Translations under genes and position numbers: made by a program | Shown here: positions 27,329 through 32,512 of the stretch, piece by piece | Position numbering within the stretch: the first letter of the stretch is position 1 | Layout of the letters: each line of letters begins with the position of its first letter | Source of the DNA: Gammaproteobacteria bacterium | GTDB lineage: Bacteria > Pseudomonadota > Gammaproteobacteria > Pseudomonadales > Azotimanducaceae | DNA: 58,603 bases | Reading direction: 5' to 3' | Assembly: GCA_028821125.1 (NCBI GenBank) | Contig: JAPPHD010000107.1 | Span: forward strand, 1 to 58,603 | Notes under the pieces: generated by a model | Told to the model about the DNA's origin: nothing | Database searches by the model: none | The model's input: only the letters and a program-made list of their open reading frames with translations

Positions 27329-27610
27329 TCATGCAACCGCGAACCTCGTGATGCCGCTGAGGTCCAACGCCTTTGCGGCTTCCTCCAAGTCATAGCTGGT
27401 CTGTAGGTTCAGCCAGAATGCCGGAGAGGTTCCAAAGTACTTCGCCAGGCGCAACGCCGAGTTCGCGGTGATCGAACGTTTGCCGTGAACAATCTCATTG
27501 ATCGCGCGGGGCGACATGCCAATTTCCCGGCCTAACCGGTTTTGGCTGATACCGAATTCGTTGAGGAACTCCTCGAGAAGCACCTCTCCCGGATGTATGT
27601 TTTCGAGCAT
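27329..27610 (-). CDS. higA: HigA-family antitoxin
   Basis: This 93-residue HTH_XRE antitoxin has the HigA hallmarks IHPGEVLLEEFLNEFGISQN, MSPRAINEIVHGKRSITA and SALRLAKYFGTSPAFWLNLQ. It binds HigB and the operon promoter. It lies 9 bp downstream of higB on the same strand, in the toxin-first order typical of higBA. Confidence 0.9.
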   Translation of the reverse strand: MLENIHPGEVLLEEFLNEFGISQNRLGREIGMSPRAINEIVHGKRSITANSALRLAKYFGTSPAFWLNLQTSYDLEEAAKALDLSGITRFAVA

Positions 27611-27619
27611 GTTTGACCT

Positions 27620-27901
27620 CTAGTGATAGTCGACGATTTCCACGTCCTTTGCGTGGGAATCCCGCCAATCGAAGCAGATACGCCATTGGTCGTTAATGCG
27701 GATGCTGTACTGTCCCTGGCGGTCGCCTCGCAGCTTTTCCAGACAATTCGATGGCGGGACTCGCAAGTCGTCGAGTACGGTCGCCGCGTCCAGCATGCGC
27801 AACTTGCGCCGTGCCCGCTGTTGGATCTCGGTCGCAAGCCTCTTGGCGCGTTCGCCGTTGAATATGGCTTCAGCGCGCTTGTCTTTGAACGAACGGATCA
27901 C
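27620..27901 (-). CDS. higB: HigB/RelE-family mRNA interferase toxin
   Basis: The protein has 93 residues. The patterns MIRSFKDKRAEAIF, LRVPPSNCLEKLRGDRQGQY and SIRINDQWRICFDW are typical of HigB toxins, which cleave ribosome-bound mRNA. Basic residues and the C-terminal DVEIVDYH fit the family. It is the first gene of the pair, with a palindromic operator immediately upstream. Confidence 0.9.
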   Translation of the reverse strand: MIRSFKDKRAEAIFNGERAKRLATEIQQRARRKLRMLDAATVLDDLRVPPSNCLEKLRGDRQGQYSIRINDQWRICFDWRDSHAKDVEIVDYH

Positions 27902-28106: not shown

Positions 28107-29438
28107 CTATCCGGCCTGGTTTTTGCCAGCCAGGGCGCCGCCCGGCGTTCCACCAGCCCGCTTCGCGATCTCGTTCTCGACCCGCCAGATGCGATCCTGG
28201 CCCCAGCAGGCGTAGGCGTCCTCTTCAATGCCGCCGATGACGCGGAAGCTCGGCACGCCCCAAAGGCCTGCATCCAGCATGGCGTTCAGGTTGTCGTCCA
28301 AAAGCGCCGACCAGTCCGTATCCCGGTTCGCCGCCCGCAGCTCGCTCCAGTTCAAGCCGGCATTGGCTGCCACCTGGCGAAGGCCCGCCTCCGTCGAGAT
28401 GTCGATTCCCTCCGCCCAGGCGGCGGCGAGGTAGGCCGTGACGAAGGCCATGCCCGCATCCAACGCAACGGCGCCGGGAAAGAGCGCGAAGGCGTGCCTG
28501 ACCGGCTCCCCGAAGGGATCGACCATGCGTTTGAACGGCACGCCATGGGCGCGCGCTTCCCGCGCCGCGTCGGTGAGGATGTAGCGTTGCTTGGGGCGCG
28601 GGGCCGGCACGCCGCGCATCAGCATGGGCATCACCGGGCGCAGCTTCACGGTGACGCCGCTGCGGGCGATCAGGTCCAGCACCCGCTGGTGGCCGACCGC
28701 CGTGTAGGGGCTGCGCAGCGACGGGAAGTACTCCAGGATGACGTCGCCGGCATCGAGGCCGGAAGTGTCAACGGGAACCGGTTCGGGTACGCAGAGCTCG
28801 CCGCCGCCGAAACCTTCGTTCATCAGGCGCGCCTCGAGCAGCCGAATCCGGTCGATACCCCAGAACCATTCGCCGTCGAAGTGGAACATCCCGCCGAGAT
28901 AGTGGCCCAGCCGCTCCCGCAGTGCGACGCCCCGACGTACGGCTTCCCGGCCCGTGCCGCCGGAATCCGCAGGCTGCAACGCACCCGACCAGAGCGCCTC
29001 GCCCGTTGCGAACGCTTGAGCCGCAAATTCGGCGGCATCGAGATGCGGTGCCAGCCGATCGTTGGCTTGATCCACGCTCGAGGGTTGCGGCAGGGTCTTG
29101 GCATCGAACGCCACGCCGTAGCCGGCGGCGACGCTCCTCGCATCGTTGAGCGCCCAAGCCGCAAAGTGCTCGCTGCTGCCTTGAAAGGCGGCGGCGGGCC
29201 CTGACACCAGATGGACCTTGAACGGCAGGTCGTAGGCCGCATTCAGGGCATCCAGTTTCTGCACCGCCAGGTGACTGTAGGGATCGTCCACCTGATGAAA
29301 GTAGTGCACCGCCTGGGCTTCGCCGGACAGCCTTCGCCTGAGCCGCGCCCGGCGCCTTGATGAGCGCAGGAACGCCTCGGAGGCCATCAGCCGCATCGCT
29401 TGGGAGCGGATGCGGGTTTTCAGGCGTTCAGGGTTCAC
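28107..29438 (-). CDS. Tandem DsbA-fold protein (2-hydroxychromene-2-carboxylate isomerase-like)
   Basis: The protein is about 443 residues from a GTG at 29438; ATG at 29396 is an alternative. Two DsbA/HCCA-isomerase-like domains follow each other: the first begins VHYFHQVDDPYSHLAVQKLD, the second VILEYFPSLRSPYTAVGHQR, each with the S/D-PY motif of kappa-class GST/HCCA isomerases in place of CxxC. The C-terminal WGVPSFRVIGGIEEDAYACW belongs to the second domain. HCCA isomerases act in naphthalene-type pathways with glutathione. A two-domain single chain is unusual. An upstream extension of the frame has no start support. Confidence 0.75.
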   Translation of the reverse strand: MNPERLKTRIRSQAMRLMASEAFLRSSRRRARLRRRLSGEAQAVHYFHQVDDPYSHLAVQKLDALNAAYDLPFKVHLVSGPAAAFQGSSEHFAAWALNDARSVAAGYGVAFDAKTLPQPSSVDQANDRLAPHLDAAEFAAQAFATGEALWSGALQPADSGGTGREAVRRGVALRERLGHYLGGMFHFDGEWFWGIDRIRLLEARLMNEGFGGGELCVPEPVPVDTSGLDAGDVILEYFPSLRSPYTAVGHQRVLDLIARSGVTVKLRPVMPMLMRGVPAPRPKQRYILTDAAREARAHGVPFKRMVDPFGEPVRHAFALFPGAVALDAGMAFVTAYLAAAWAEGIDISTEAGLRQVAANAGLNWSELRAANRDTDWSALLDDNLNAMLDAGLWGVPSFRVIGGIEEDAYACWGQDRIWRVENEIAKRAGGTPGGALAGKNQAG

Positions 29439-29488
29439 GGATGTGGATCTCGGTGGAGTTTTGTTCGCCCGCCCTACAACGCCGATGA

Positions 29489-30022
29489 TCAGTCGCCGCC
29501 TCTGCTGTCGCGGATCGCGCGAATCCCACCGCGCAGCAGCGCCACAAGCAACAGCCCCAGTCCAAGAATCAGGCAGACCGGGAGAATCCAGCCCTTTACC
29601 AGGGTGAAAGCCGACGCCCAGGCCACCTGGATGGCGCCGACGTTGGGGTACTGGAGAAGCATGGCGGTGATCTGGGCGTTCTCCGCCAAATCCCCGAGGC
29701 CGGCGACAACCGGGATGAACGCCAGAATCCACGTCCCCTCGGTCAGCCGGAAGCGGTAGATCAGGCCGGCAAGGAACGTGACGTAGATAACGGGAAAAAG
29801 CGTGTCGAGCACGGCGCTTGCCCATGCGTAGGTCGTCCTGCCACTCGGTCCGTATTCCTCCATCGACGCCATCGCCTCTTCGTGCGAGTAGCCGGGCTTC
29901 ATGTCGAGCATCTCGCCGCCGATTGGAAGATTCGGGAACACCAGAACCAGGAACGCCGCCGTGGCGGCGAAGGTTACTGCCAGCGTGCGGGTCCGGCCGG
30001 CGAACTCAAAATAGGATCGCAT
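29489..30022 (-). CDS. Integral membrane protein, about five helices, unknown
   Basis: The protein is 177 residues from the ATG at 30022, which is preceded by AGGAG at proper spacing; the in-frame ATG 7 codons earlier lacks one. Hydrophobic segments lie at about 10-30, 65-85, 95-115, 125-145 and 148-168. The motif YGPSGRTTYAWASAVLDTLFP precedes the second helix, and GLGDLAENAQI is polar within the third. I do not recognise a named family. It starts divergently from the diheme cytochrome gene, 299 bp away. Confidence 0.75.
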   Translation of the reverse strand: MRSYFEFAGRTRTLAVTFAATAAFLVLVFPNLPIGGEMLDMKPGYSHEEAMASMEEYGPSGRTTYAWASAVLDTLFPVIYVTFLAGLIYRFRLTEGTWILAFIPVVAGLGDLAENAQITAMLLQYPNVGAIQVAWASAFTLVKGWILPVCLILGLGLLLVALLRGGIRAIRDSRGGD

Positions 30023-30321: not shown

Positions 30322-31092
30322 ATGACGTCGTTTCGAATACGCTCTGGTTTGGTACTGTTTCTGCTGCCGATTCTGAATGCTCCCGTGTTGGCCGGGGAAC
30401 CGTCAGAGGACATACACACCGCCTTCCTCGAGCACATGCACGGCCACCTCGAGCAGATCAGCGAGATAAAAGACGCTGTGATCGCCGGCAATTTGCCAGA
30501 CGTGCGGGAACCGGCCCGGTGGCTCGCGTCTTCCGAACCCCCGGGCCTGTCACTGCCCTGGATGCCGTATGTGCAGGAGATGCGTCGCTACGCGAGCCGC
30601 GCAGCCGACGCCACAGACCTGGTTGCCGCCGCCAGCGCGGTCAGCGAAATCGCTCGGACTTGTGGGGATTGTCACCGCGCCAGCGGTGTATCGATCGCAT
30701 TCGGGTTCGACGAGCGTCCCCCCGAGGAGGAGCAGAGTCTCATGACCCAGATGCAACGGCATCTGTGGGCTGCGGATCGCATGTGGGAGGGCTTGATCGG
30801 GCCGTCCGATTCAGCCTGGAACCGGGGCGCCGCCATCCTCTCGGAGATTCATCTGGACATCTCCGACTTCGCCGGCTCCGGCGCGGAAGGCGCAGGTTCC
30901 GCGGAAAACGAATCGCAGATGAGTGAACTGCTGAGCCGTGCGAGCGGAATGGGTGAGCAGGGTGGCCTGGCAGCTTCCACGGAACTGCGCAGTGGCCTGT
31001 ATGGCGAATTCCTGTCGCTGTGCGCCAGTTGCCACAGTCTGACGGGGGGCGGCCCGGAAGGTCAGGGCTTCTCCATGTCAAGCGGCCGGTAA
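30322..31092 (+). CDS. Periplasmic diheme cytochrome c
   Basis: The 256-residue protein has a signal peptide at 1-24 (ending PVLAG) and two CxxCH haem sites, C114-GD-CH118 and C234-AS-CH238. Histidine-rich helices near residues 32-44 (HTAFLEHMHGHLEQ) could supply an axial ligand. The two-haem, helix-rich layout is consistent with small periplasmic electron carriers. It is convergent with the selenoprotein candidate, and their 3' ends overlap by 31 bp. The redox partner is not evident. Confidence 0.85.
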   Translation: MTSFRIRSGLVLFLLPILNAPVLAGEPSEDIHTAFLEHMHGHLEQISEIKDAVIAGNLPDVREPARWLASSEPPGLSLPWMPYVQEMRRYASRAADATDLVAAASAVSEIARTCGDCHRASGVSIAFGFDERPPEEEQSLMTQMQRHLWAADRMWEGLIGPSDSAWNRGAAILSEIHLDISDFAGSGAEGAGSAENESQMSELLSRASGMGEQGGLAASTELRSGLYGEFLSLCASCHSLTGGGPEGQGFSMSSGR

Positions 31093-32204
31093 TAGTCCTT
31101 GCCCTGGCTGGCGTATTCCATCATTACCTTGCGGAACGTCTCGCCGGCCGAACCTTCTTCCGTCAGGGTGAGATTCTGCCGGATGAAGTTGATGCTGTCG
31201 GGGTTCAGCGACCGGGCCATCTCCCAGTAGCGTTCCGCCTTGTCTTCCCGGCCGTGCGCCCGGAACAGGTTGGCGAGCCGGAACGCCGCGTCGGCCTGCT
31301 GTTGGGCGAAGCTGTGCTTGCGGATGTTCCCGGAGACGGCGGCGGCGGACTGCACGAACCTGCTCTCGGCCCCTTTCGCCACCCAATCCTTCAACGCCGG
31401 GGCGTAGACGTCGTTGCCGAAGGTGATCTTCTGATCGCCGGCTTCGATTTCGTGAATCGCCGAGTAGGTGCCTTCATCAATGCGCACGATCCTGCCGGTC
31501 TCGTCGATCCAGGCTGCGGAAGGCACGTTCACGAAATTGAAGGCGCTGCTGATGATGTGATCTTCGTCCACGACCTGTACGTAGGTGGGGTTCGCCGCAT
31601 CGAAGATGGGGCCAGCTGCCGCCTCGCCTCCGGTGTCCTGCGCGGCGCAGATCAGCACAAAGTTCGGGTCGTTGATTTCCTCGTAGATGCGTTGCCACAC
31701 GGGCACGTCGAGCATGCAGCCTCACCAGGACGACCAGGTGGCGATGAGCGCCTTCCTGCCCTTGAGATCTGCCGTGCCGATGCTGTTGCCCTGGCGGTCG
31801 GTCACTTCGAAGTCCGGCGCCATGGCATCGACCATCATGCTTTCGCGCCTGGCCGGTATCTCGGCGAAGCTCCACACGCCGGCGGGCCGGTCGGCTACAT
31901 GGGGCTGGCCGACCAGGTCCGCGAAGGCGGCCAGGTCAAACCAATCCGTGCCGTCCTGTCGAATCAGCACATCCTCGTTCAACGGAATGCACACTTCTTC
32001 CCGACAGGCGCCTTCGGGTTTCAACTCGAAGCCGTTCACGCTCGGCAGGTCATCCGGCCGGATGAGCAGGCCGTCGCCGGCCCCCGTTTCGGCAAGCGTC
32101 ACCTCCCGGCCCTGGTACAACACCGTGGTACTGCCCGGCGGGTGTATCGGCGTCTCCTCGAACGGGTGACGCAGTTCCGGGTACGCCATCATGGTTTCAG
32201 CCAT
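31062..32204 (-). CDS. Thioredoxin-fold protein, probable selenoprotein (in-frame TGA)
   Basis: Read through one TGA codon (31724-31722), a 380-residue protein results with Sec at position 161 in TWSSW-U-GC-MLDVPVW. This is the place where TlpA/ResA-like proteins have WCxxC or WCGC. Upstream lies DFEVTDRQGNSIGTADLKGR, the AhpC/TSA fold entry; downstream are NPTYVQVVDE and VPSAAWIDETG, the rest of the fold, then a helical C-terminus. A hairpin CGTGCC-CGTGT-GGCAACG begins 14 nt after the TGA. The start has AAGGAGCATTGC before ATG. Cys67 and Cys72 could form a second redox pair. Alternatives are a nonsense mutation or two separate proteins, but the frame is intact on both sides. Confidence 0.82.
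31690..31707 (-). promoter_or_regulatory. SECIS-like hairpin downstream of the TGA
   Basis: In the minus-strand RNA the stem CGU-GCC pairs with GGC-(A)-ACG around a five-base loop CGUGU. The loop begins 20 nt after the UGA and has G at its second position. Bacterial SECIS elements sit directly after the UGA with a G near the start of a short apical loop, so place and form fit. Confidence 0.6.
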
Positions 32205-32512
32205 GCAATGCTCCTTCGGGCCGTTCGCGGAGCCGCCATGCTAGCGAAATGACGTTCGGTTTGCAGGCGCTGGACAATTTCGGGTTCTTGCGTTGCGCCG
32301 TTTCGGTCTCACGCCGCCCGTCGACGGGCCAGCGCAAACCATCGGAGGGCCTGGCTTTGGAGGTGCCGTGCACCGGGTCAATTCGTCGGTCTGAGGGTGA
32401 AACGCCGTGCAACCGGCAGCCGGGCCGGTTGATCGAGTAAAGTTCGCAACCGGGCACCGCTTTACTGGGGCTGAAGCGTCGCCCAGTCAGGAATCATGGC
32501 AAAGATCTAAGG
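32205..32512. promoter_or_regulatory. Intergenic region between selenoprotein candidate and MFS gene, with stem-loop
   Basis: This 308-bp region holds divergent promoters by position. A perfect 8-bp stem, CAACCGGC-AGCCGG-GCCGGTTG, lies at 32410-32431; without a U-tract it is not a clear terminator. I see no gene in it. Confidence 0.45.

Follow-up and report, generated by a model that had tools for sequence, protein, structure and literature searches.

The window, a stretch of 58,603 nucleotides, carries an apparently broken gene that almost certainly encodes a selenium-containing redox protein, as judged from relatives that keep the same in-frame stop codon or carry a cysteine in its place. 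The best explanation as a whole, which is very probably correct, is that UGA codon 161 would be read as selenocysteine (Sec) by the genome's own machinery with the help of a hairpin in the message, and that this Sec would form part of a U-G-C redox site in a thioredoxin fold.

Gene and Protein Architecture

Under translation table 11, the locus yields two open reading frames: one of 160 residues that ends at the TGA (32204..31722) and one of 217 residues (31715..31062). With the TGA read as Sec, they become one protein of 380 residues that holds C67, C72, U161, G162, and C163, and codon 161 is the only in-frame TGA. It falls within the sequence WSSW-U-GC of a ResA/TlpA-like thioredoxin domain (Table 1). 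An earlier reading made from the sequence alone (the sequence-only reading) had proposed that two split frames form a single selenoprotein frame running on for 217 codons past the TGA, with a U161/C163 pair in UxC spacing and a C67-x4-C72 pair; the translation bears out each of these points, and the strand, on which that reading was silent, is the minus strand. Its further description of an unusual redox protein holds in part: the UxC and C67/C72 pairs are real, whereas UGC spacing has already been described and a curated NCBI model exists for the family.

Table 1. Features of the selenoprotein gene, in window coordinates
Feature	Position	Strand	Evidence
Selenoprotein gene (380 residues, then a TGA stop), WSSW-U-GC branch, ResA/TlpA-like	31062..32204	-	Translation, alignment, tree
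Shine-Dalgarno-like AGGAG, 6 nt ahead of ATG	32211..32215	-	By eye
N-terminal domain, residues 1-120	31845..32204	-	Pfam and PDB searches, which gave no convincing match
Cys67	32004..32006	-	Invariant in 34/34 aligned N-domains and 48/48 proteins
Cys72	31989..31991	-	Invariant like Cys67, in 34/34 aligned N-domains and 48/48 proteins
Thioredoxin-like (Redoxin/AhpC-TSA) domain, residues 127-245	31470..31826	-	Pfam, PDB, structure model
TGA codon 161, read as selenocysteine	31722..31724	-	58 TGA and 6 TGC among 64 distinct homologues (the window's counted)
Cys163, paired with Sec161 in UGC motif	31716..31718	-	Invariant in 48 aligned proteins, in part circularly, since the homologue scan demanded GC at that place
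SECIS hairpin: inner stem TGCC/GGCA (4 bp), loop CGTGT, one bulged base, 2 outer pairs	31690..31707	-	Comparative and folding analysis
C-terminal tail of helices, residues 267-366, including one TPR-like repeat (304-336)	31107..31406	-	Pfam, structure model

Redox Domain and Proposed Chemistry

Residues 126-245 of the window protein match PF00578 at 29.1 bits (cut-off 26) and PF08534 at 30.5 bits (cut-off 26.6). By sequence, the closest solved structures are the thioredoxin-like protein 3kcm and the ResA proteins 4nmu, 3c71, 1st9, and 2f9s. An AlphaFold2 model computed with 48 homologues has a mean pLDDT of 92.4, and its top fold matches in the PDB are thioredoxin-like 3kcm and 4nmu, together with ResA 2f9s/1su9. 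In the alignment, Sec161 coincides with the first Cys of the thioredoxin C-x-x-C motif, with one residue missing. The TPR-like repeat in the tail of the window protein falls under the Pfam cut-off.

For the N-terminal domain, Pfam and the PDB offer no convincing relative. Searches of PDB sequences return nothing at E values up to 1, and the window's own domain has no match in Pfam, where scattered matches at E 0.018-0.096 occur in 1-2 of 34 members. A Foldseek search with a model of the domain (pLDDT 78.6) returns nothing at E 0.001, the best value being 0.16. The C67-x4-C72 pair is invariant in the Cys copies of the protein as well.

In thioredoxin chemistry, the residue at the first Cys position attacks and the second Cys resolves. 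From the alignment, Sec161 replaces the first, attacking Cys of the ResA/TlpA-like fold, with Cys163 as its partner. The protein may be pictured as a thiol/selenol oxidoreductase in which Sec161 would attack a substrate, either a disulfide or a peroxide, and a Sec161-Cys163 selenenylsulfide would form. A reductant would then restore the site, possibly through Cys67 and Cys72 of the N-terminal domain, whose invariance suggests that they probably share in the cycle, and partners would be held by the helical tail. The enzyme is probably cytoplasmic, since inspection by eye shows no signal peptide in the window clade.

The same selenoprotein could instead work mainly as a peroxiredoxin-like enzyme that reduces peroxides, rather than in disulfide reduction or isomerisation. 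All 48 members match the AhpC-TSA and Redoxin profiles at E 0.01, 34 of the 48 match the GSHPx profile weakly, and an older name, 'Prx-like (UGC-containing)' (PMC2398784), points the same way. Against this stand the closest solved structures, which by sequence and by fold are thioredoxin-like and ResA, the nearest NCBIfam names, which are ResA-like and ResA, and the conserved second Cys two residues on, which makes a thioredoxin-type pair. Peroxide reduction as the main reaction is a possibility of somewhat less than even likelihood.

Conservation of the UGA Codon

Of the 64 distinct homologues gathered, the window's among them, 58 have TGA at site 161 and 6 have TGC; the scan motif accepted a stop or any of C, S, T, A, G, and Y there, followed by G-C, so that other residues would escape it. 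Five relatives from named records, at 67-85% identity, all have TGA there; by their titles they are metagenome-assembled genomes of Gammaproteobacteria, of Pseudomonadales, and, in one case, of Alphaproteobacteria. The TGA thus occupies the place of the expected redox Cys, as had been supposed. One genome (G1009) has a TGC (Cys) copy as well as a TGA (Sec) copy, at loci L112 and L113, which lie on different branches.

Homologues at E 1e-20, in counts that always include the genome of the window, are present in 68 of 150 genomes from the family, in 3 of 369 from the class, and in 2 of 398 from the phylum. In the order, 9 of 293 genomes have a match at E 1e-20, and 160 of 293 have one at E 0.001, mostly to the thioredoxin domain alone. 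From these counts, the protein, together with its nearest paralogues, is frequent within the window's family and rare elsewhere. Among plasmids, 24 records match, all at less than 60% identity and none spanning 80% of the query; the 15 of the 24 that are listed start at residue 108 or later and thus lack the N-terminal domain.

A split frame is weak evidence by itself. In the six frames of this G+C-rich window, such joins are not rare: 35 TGA codons are flanked on each side by 100 or more open codons. Ranked by the excess of G+C at third over second codon positions, taken for the weaker side, the U161 join comes first of the 35 by a narrow margin (0.34 vs 0.33 for the next), and it stands above chance because of its conservation among homologues. 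The other 34 joins, inspected by eye, are unconvincing as a second selenoprotein in the window.

These frequent joins, and the two ORFs given by table 11, would also fit a UGA that is a true stop, which would leave only a pseudogene or a 160-residue fragment beside a separate or dead 217-residue ORF. Conservation in effect refutes this: 58 distinct genes, the most distant of them (L032) at 26% protein identity, share the TGA at this codon, and their frame is open before and after it. A break there would also split the thioredoxin fold between the strand at 151-157 and the helix at 162-177, and the synonymous freezing described below is confined to codons 167-169. A true stop retains practically no likelihood.

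Selenocysteine Machinery

The genome that contains the window encodes selA (518.5 bits), selB (385.5), selD (277), and tRNA-Sec (75.8), each above its cut-off. The selA, selB, and tRNA-Sec genes adjoin in a row on one contig (C142), selD is on another (C33), and a separate Rfam scan recovers the same tRNA-Sec. Among the genomes compared, selA is present in six of six with TGA copies, including G1009 with its additional Cys copy, and in none of the four that yielded Cys copies only (G120, G092, G027, and G029). These four likewise show no tRNA-Sec above the cut-off, the best score being 46.9 (G029). The sequence-only reading had named selA, selB, selC, and selD, and Cys in place of the TGA residue among homologues, as the means of checking its selenoprotein interpretation; both the machinery and the Cys homologues are found, and they support it.

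Sec use is general in the window's family, where selA is detected at E 1e-60 in 126 of 150 genomes. Presence of selA does not separate family genomes with a homologue (60 of 68) from those without (66 of 82; Fisher p 0.26). The eight homologue-bearing genomes that show no selA at E 1e-60 are counter-evidence. A tRNA-Sec above the cut-off is found in four of them, in one case barely (G1047, 48.3 bits vs 47), and in the other four (G1062, G1074, G1082, and G1099) none exceeds it. The eight assemblies are 73-96% complete, and missing contigs are the likely cause.

Two of these genomes, G1082 and G1099 (loci L074 and L088), belong to one genus and are 93 and 96% complete. Both have a TGA orthologue, and neither selA nor tRNA-Sec above the cut-off was found in either.

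The idea that the UGA is read as some other residue, such as Trp after a change of code, or is passed by leaky read-through, draws on the open frame alone and is extremely improbable, given that the gene's own terminator is TGA, that the six sense-codon homologues have Cys and not Trp (in a scan whose motif would have missed Trp), and that the genome has the Sec machinery.

The SECIS Hairpin

A hairpin of the form CG-TGCC-(CGTGT)-GGCA-A-CG (31707-31690) starts 14 nt past the TGA and has a five-nucleotide loop with G second, as the sequence-only reading had described; the loop follows the UGA by 20 nt. Published limits for SECIS elements (PMC13188914) include a loop of 3-9 nt, a stem of 4-16 bp, a G within the first two loop bases, a spacing of 16-37 nt, and an energy of -7.5 kcal/mol or lower. 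By script comparison, the window hairpin is within these limits, with a loop of 5, a stem of 4 + 2 pairs, G second, a spacing of 20 nt, and -8.7 kcal/mol for the best fold that retains the hairpin; it is this fold that lies within the limits, and the free minimum-energy fold differs. Among the 58 TGA genes, the best hairpin-holding fold is at -7.5 kcal/mol or lower in 46, and the hairpin appears in the free minimum-energy fold of only 31 of the 58 48-mers.

Folding energy is uninformative as a SECIS test in these sequences. The window 48-mer has a free minimum-energy fold of -11.2 kcal/mol that does not contain the hairpin, and its z of +0.95 is no better than shuffles. The six stretches evaluated from five genes give z values of +0.95, +0.94, -0.03, +0.21, +0.80, and +1.35, and none clearly beats its shuffles.

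Comparison between genes, in contrast to free folding, is informative. Of the 93 conserved degenerate codons compared across 39 orthologues, complete uniformity is confined to three consecutive ones, codons 167-169: Val167 is GTG in 39/39, Pro168 is CCC in 37/37, and Val169 is GTG in 39/39, against a median top-codon share over the 93 of 0.47. These codons make up the 5' stem and loop of TGCC-CGTGT-GGCA. Covariation is seen in the outer pairs: at codon 166, the third base tracks the base opposite in the stem, with C-G in 25 of the 39 orthologues, T-A in 7, and a mismatch in 7 (p 1.4e-4, one T-C row excluded), so that a synonymous base follows its pairing partner. The four-pair inner stem is intact in 58/58 TGA genes vs 1/6 TGC genes (Fisher 8e-7, a guide value only, as the sequences are related). 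The third-base evidence is the stronger part, because codons for conserved Trp and Gln underlie most of the inner pairs.

Covariation was assessed against 500 shuffles and six slides, using 54 sequences out of the 58, of which 52 are distinct. Paired cells amount to 91.0% vs 83.2% in shuffles and double-change cells to 23 vs 9.9, and neither these values nor the covariation score is attained by any of the 500 shuffles or by any slide. Two of the five measures, the pairs changed on both sides (2 in number) and the further pair types (5 in number), do not exceed shuffles, 494 and 495 of 500 of which reach them. RNAalifold, unprompted, returns the same four inner pairs. Loops from the family's other branches read AGGTT, AGTTT, or CGGGT, with G second throughout. 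Synonymous freezing of three codons here indicates a SECIS that folding energy alone misses. On this comparative evidence, UGA161 would be decoded as Sec by SelA, SelB, SelD, and tRNA-Sec of the genome, aided by the downstream hairpin.

Gene Neighbourhood

No conserved neighbour gene is found: no neighbour is common to more than 4 of 24 loci, several of which end early at contig ends, and the clusters that span 14-24 loci are the selenoprotein gene itself and the frames opposite it. The lack of a shared neighbour means that context gives no clue to function or partner.

Two nearby loci in the window may be recorded. The minus-strand ORF at 28107-29825 has a DsbA-like thioredoxin domain (PF01323, residues 365-553) and is not in the neighbour clusters common to three or more of the 24 loci. 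At 27329-27901 on the minus strand, an ORF for a HigB-like toxin (PF05015) lies beside a helix-turn-helix ORF (PF01381), which looks like its antitoxin.

Relation to Known Families

In a maximum-likelihood tree of 64 proteins, rooted at the midpoint for drawing, the window protein belongs to a 39-row clade that is entirely TGA (support 99/98). A second all-TGA clade of nine rows (L102-L110), with the motif WASW-U-GC-RFDL[SP]GW, adjoins it. Several of the nine have hydrophobic, signal-like N-termini by eye, which suggests that a single selenoprotein family may comprise exported and cytoplasmic branches. The Cys copies fall in three places on the tree, and at least 3 changes of Sec/Cys label are needed.

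The best match of the window protein in NCBIfam is NF041054 (ResA-like WAxxUGC motif-containing protein, WAxxUGC_long), at 233.9 bits vs a cut-off of 300. Two further members of the window clade score 235.6 and 237.2. Only two of ten further family members pass the cut-off, L113 (WAPY-U-GC) and the Cys copy L031; the other eight score 235.6-298.2. Since it scores under the cut-off, the window clade is a sister branch and not a member by that model's own rule. The two share the UGC motif, the length, and a layout in which an N-terminal region is followed by the thioredoxin domain and then the tail, and profile positions 8-322 of 354 align with window residues 48-350. The window protein differs in having W-S-S-W-U-G-C in place of the literal W-A-x-x-U-G-C (WASW occurs in 2 of 39 orthologues) and about 40 extra N-terminal residues, and its clade is separate from L113 and L031.

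With an AhpC-TSA/Redoxin-type domain and Sec in UGC, the window protein fits the description of UGC-containing Prx/TlpA-like selenoproteins. The name 'Prx-like (UGC-containing)' is a table row in a 2008 ocean (GOS) survey, with row figures of 46, 15, and 855 (PMC2398784), 'UGC-containing Prx-like protein' is an entry in a review list (PMC9312934), and 'UGC-containing TlpA disulfide reductase family protein' is listed in PMC13188914. All are thioredoxin-superfamily selenoproteins with Sec in UGC, likened here to the window protein by the description in those entries and not by sequence. A literature search for 'WAxxUGC' found nothing, one for sponge and selenoprotein gave nothing relevant among the matches listed, and the main text of PMC1088965 contains neither 'UGC' nor 'TlpA'.

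The window protein represents a real, new branch of an already known kind of selenoprotein, unnamed within the sources compared, and the surprise is modest. This well-supported branch would be missed by the cut-off of NCBI's curated model, and its 39 orthologues offer the basis for a model of its own. It shares its fold and domain with the ResA/TlpA thiol-disulfide oxidoreductases. Unlike these, it has U-G-C, one residue shorter, where they have C-x-x-C, and its clade has extra N- and C-terminal domains and no signal peptide visible by eye.
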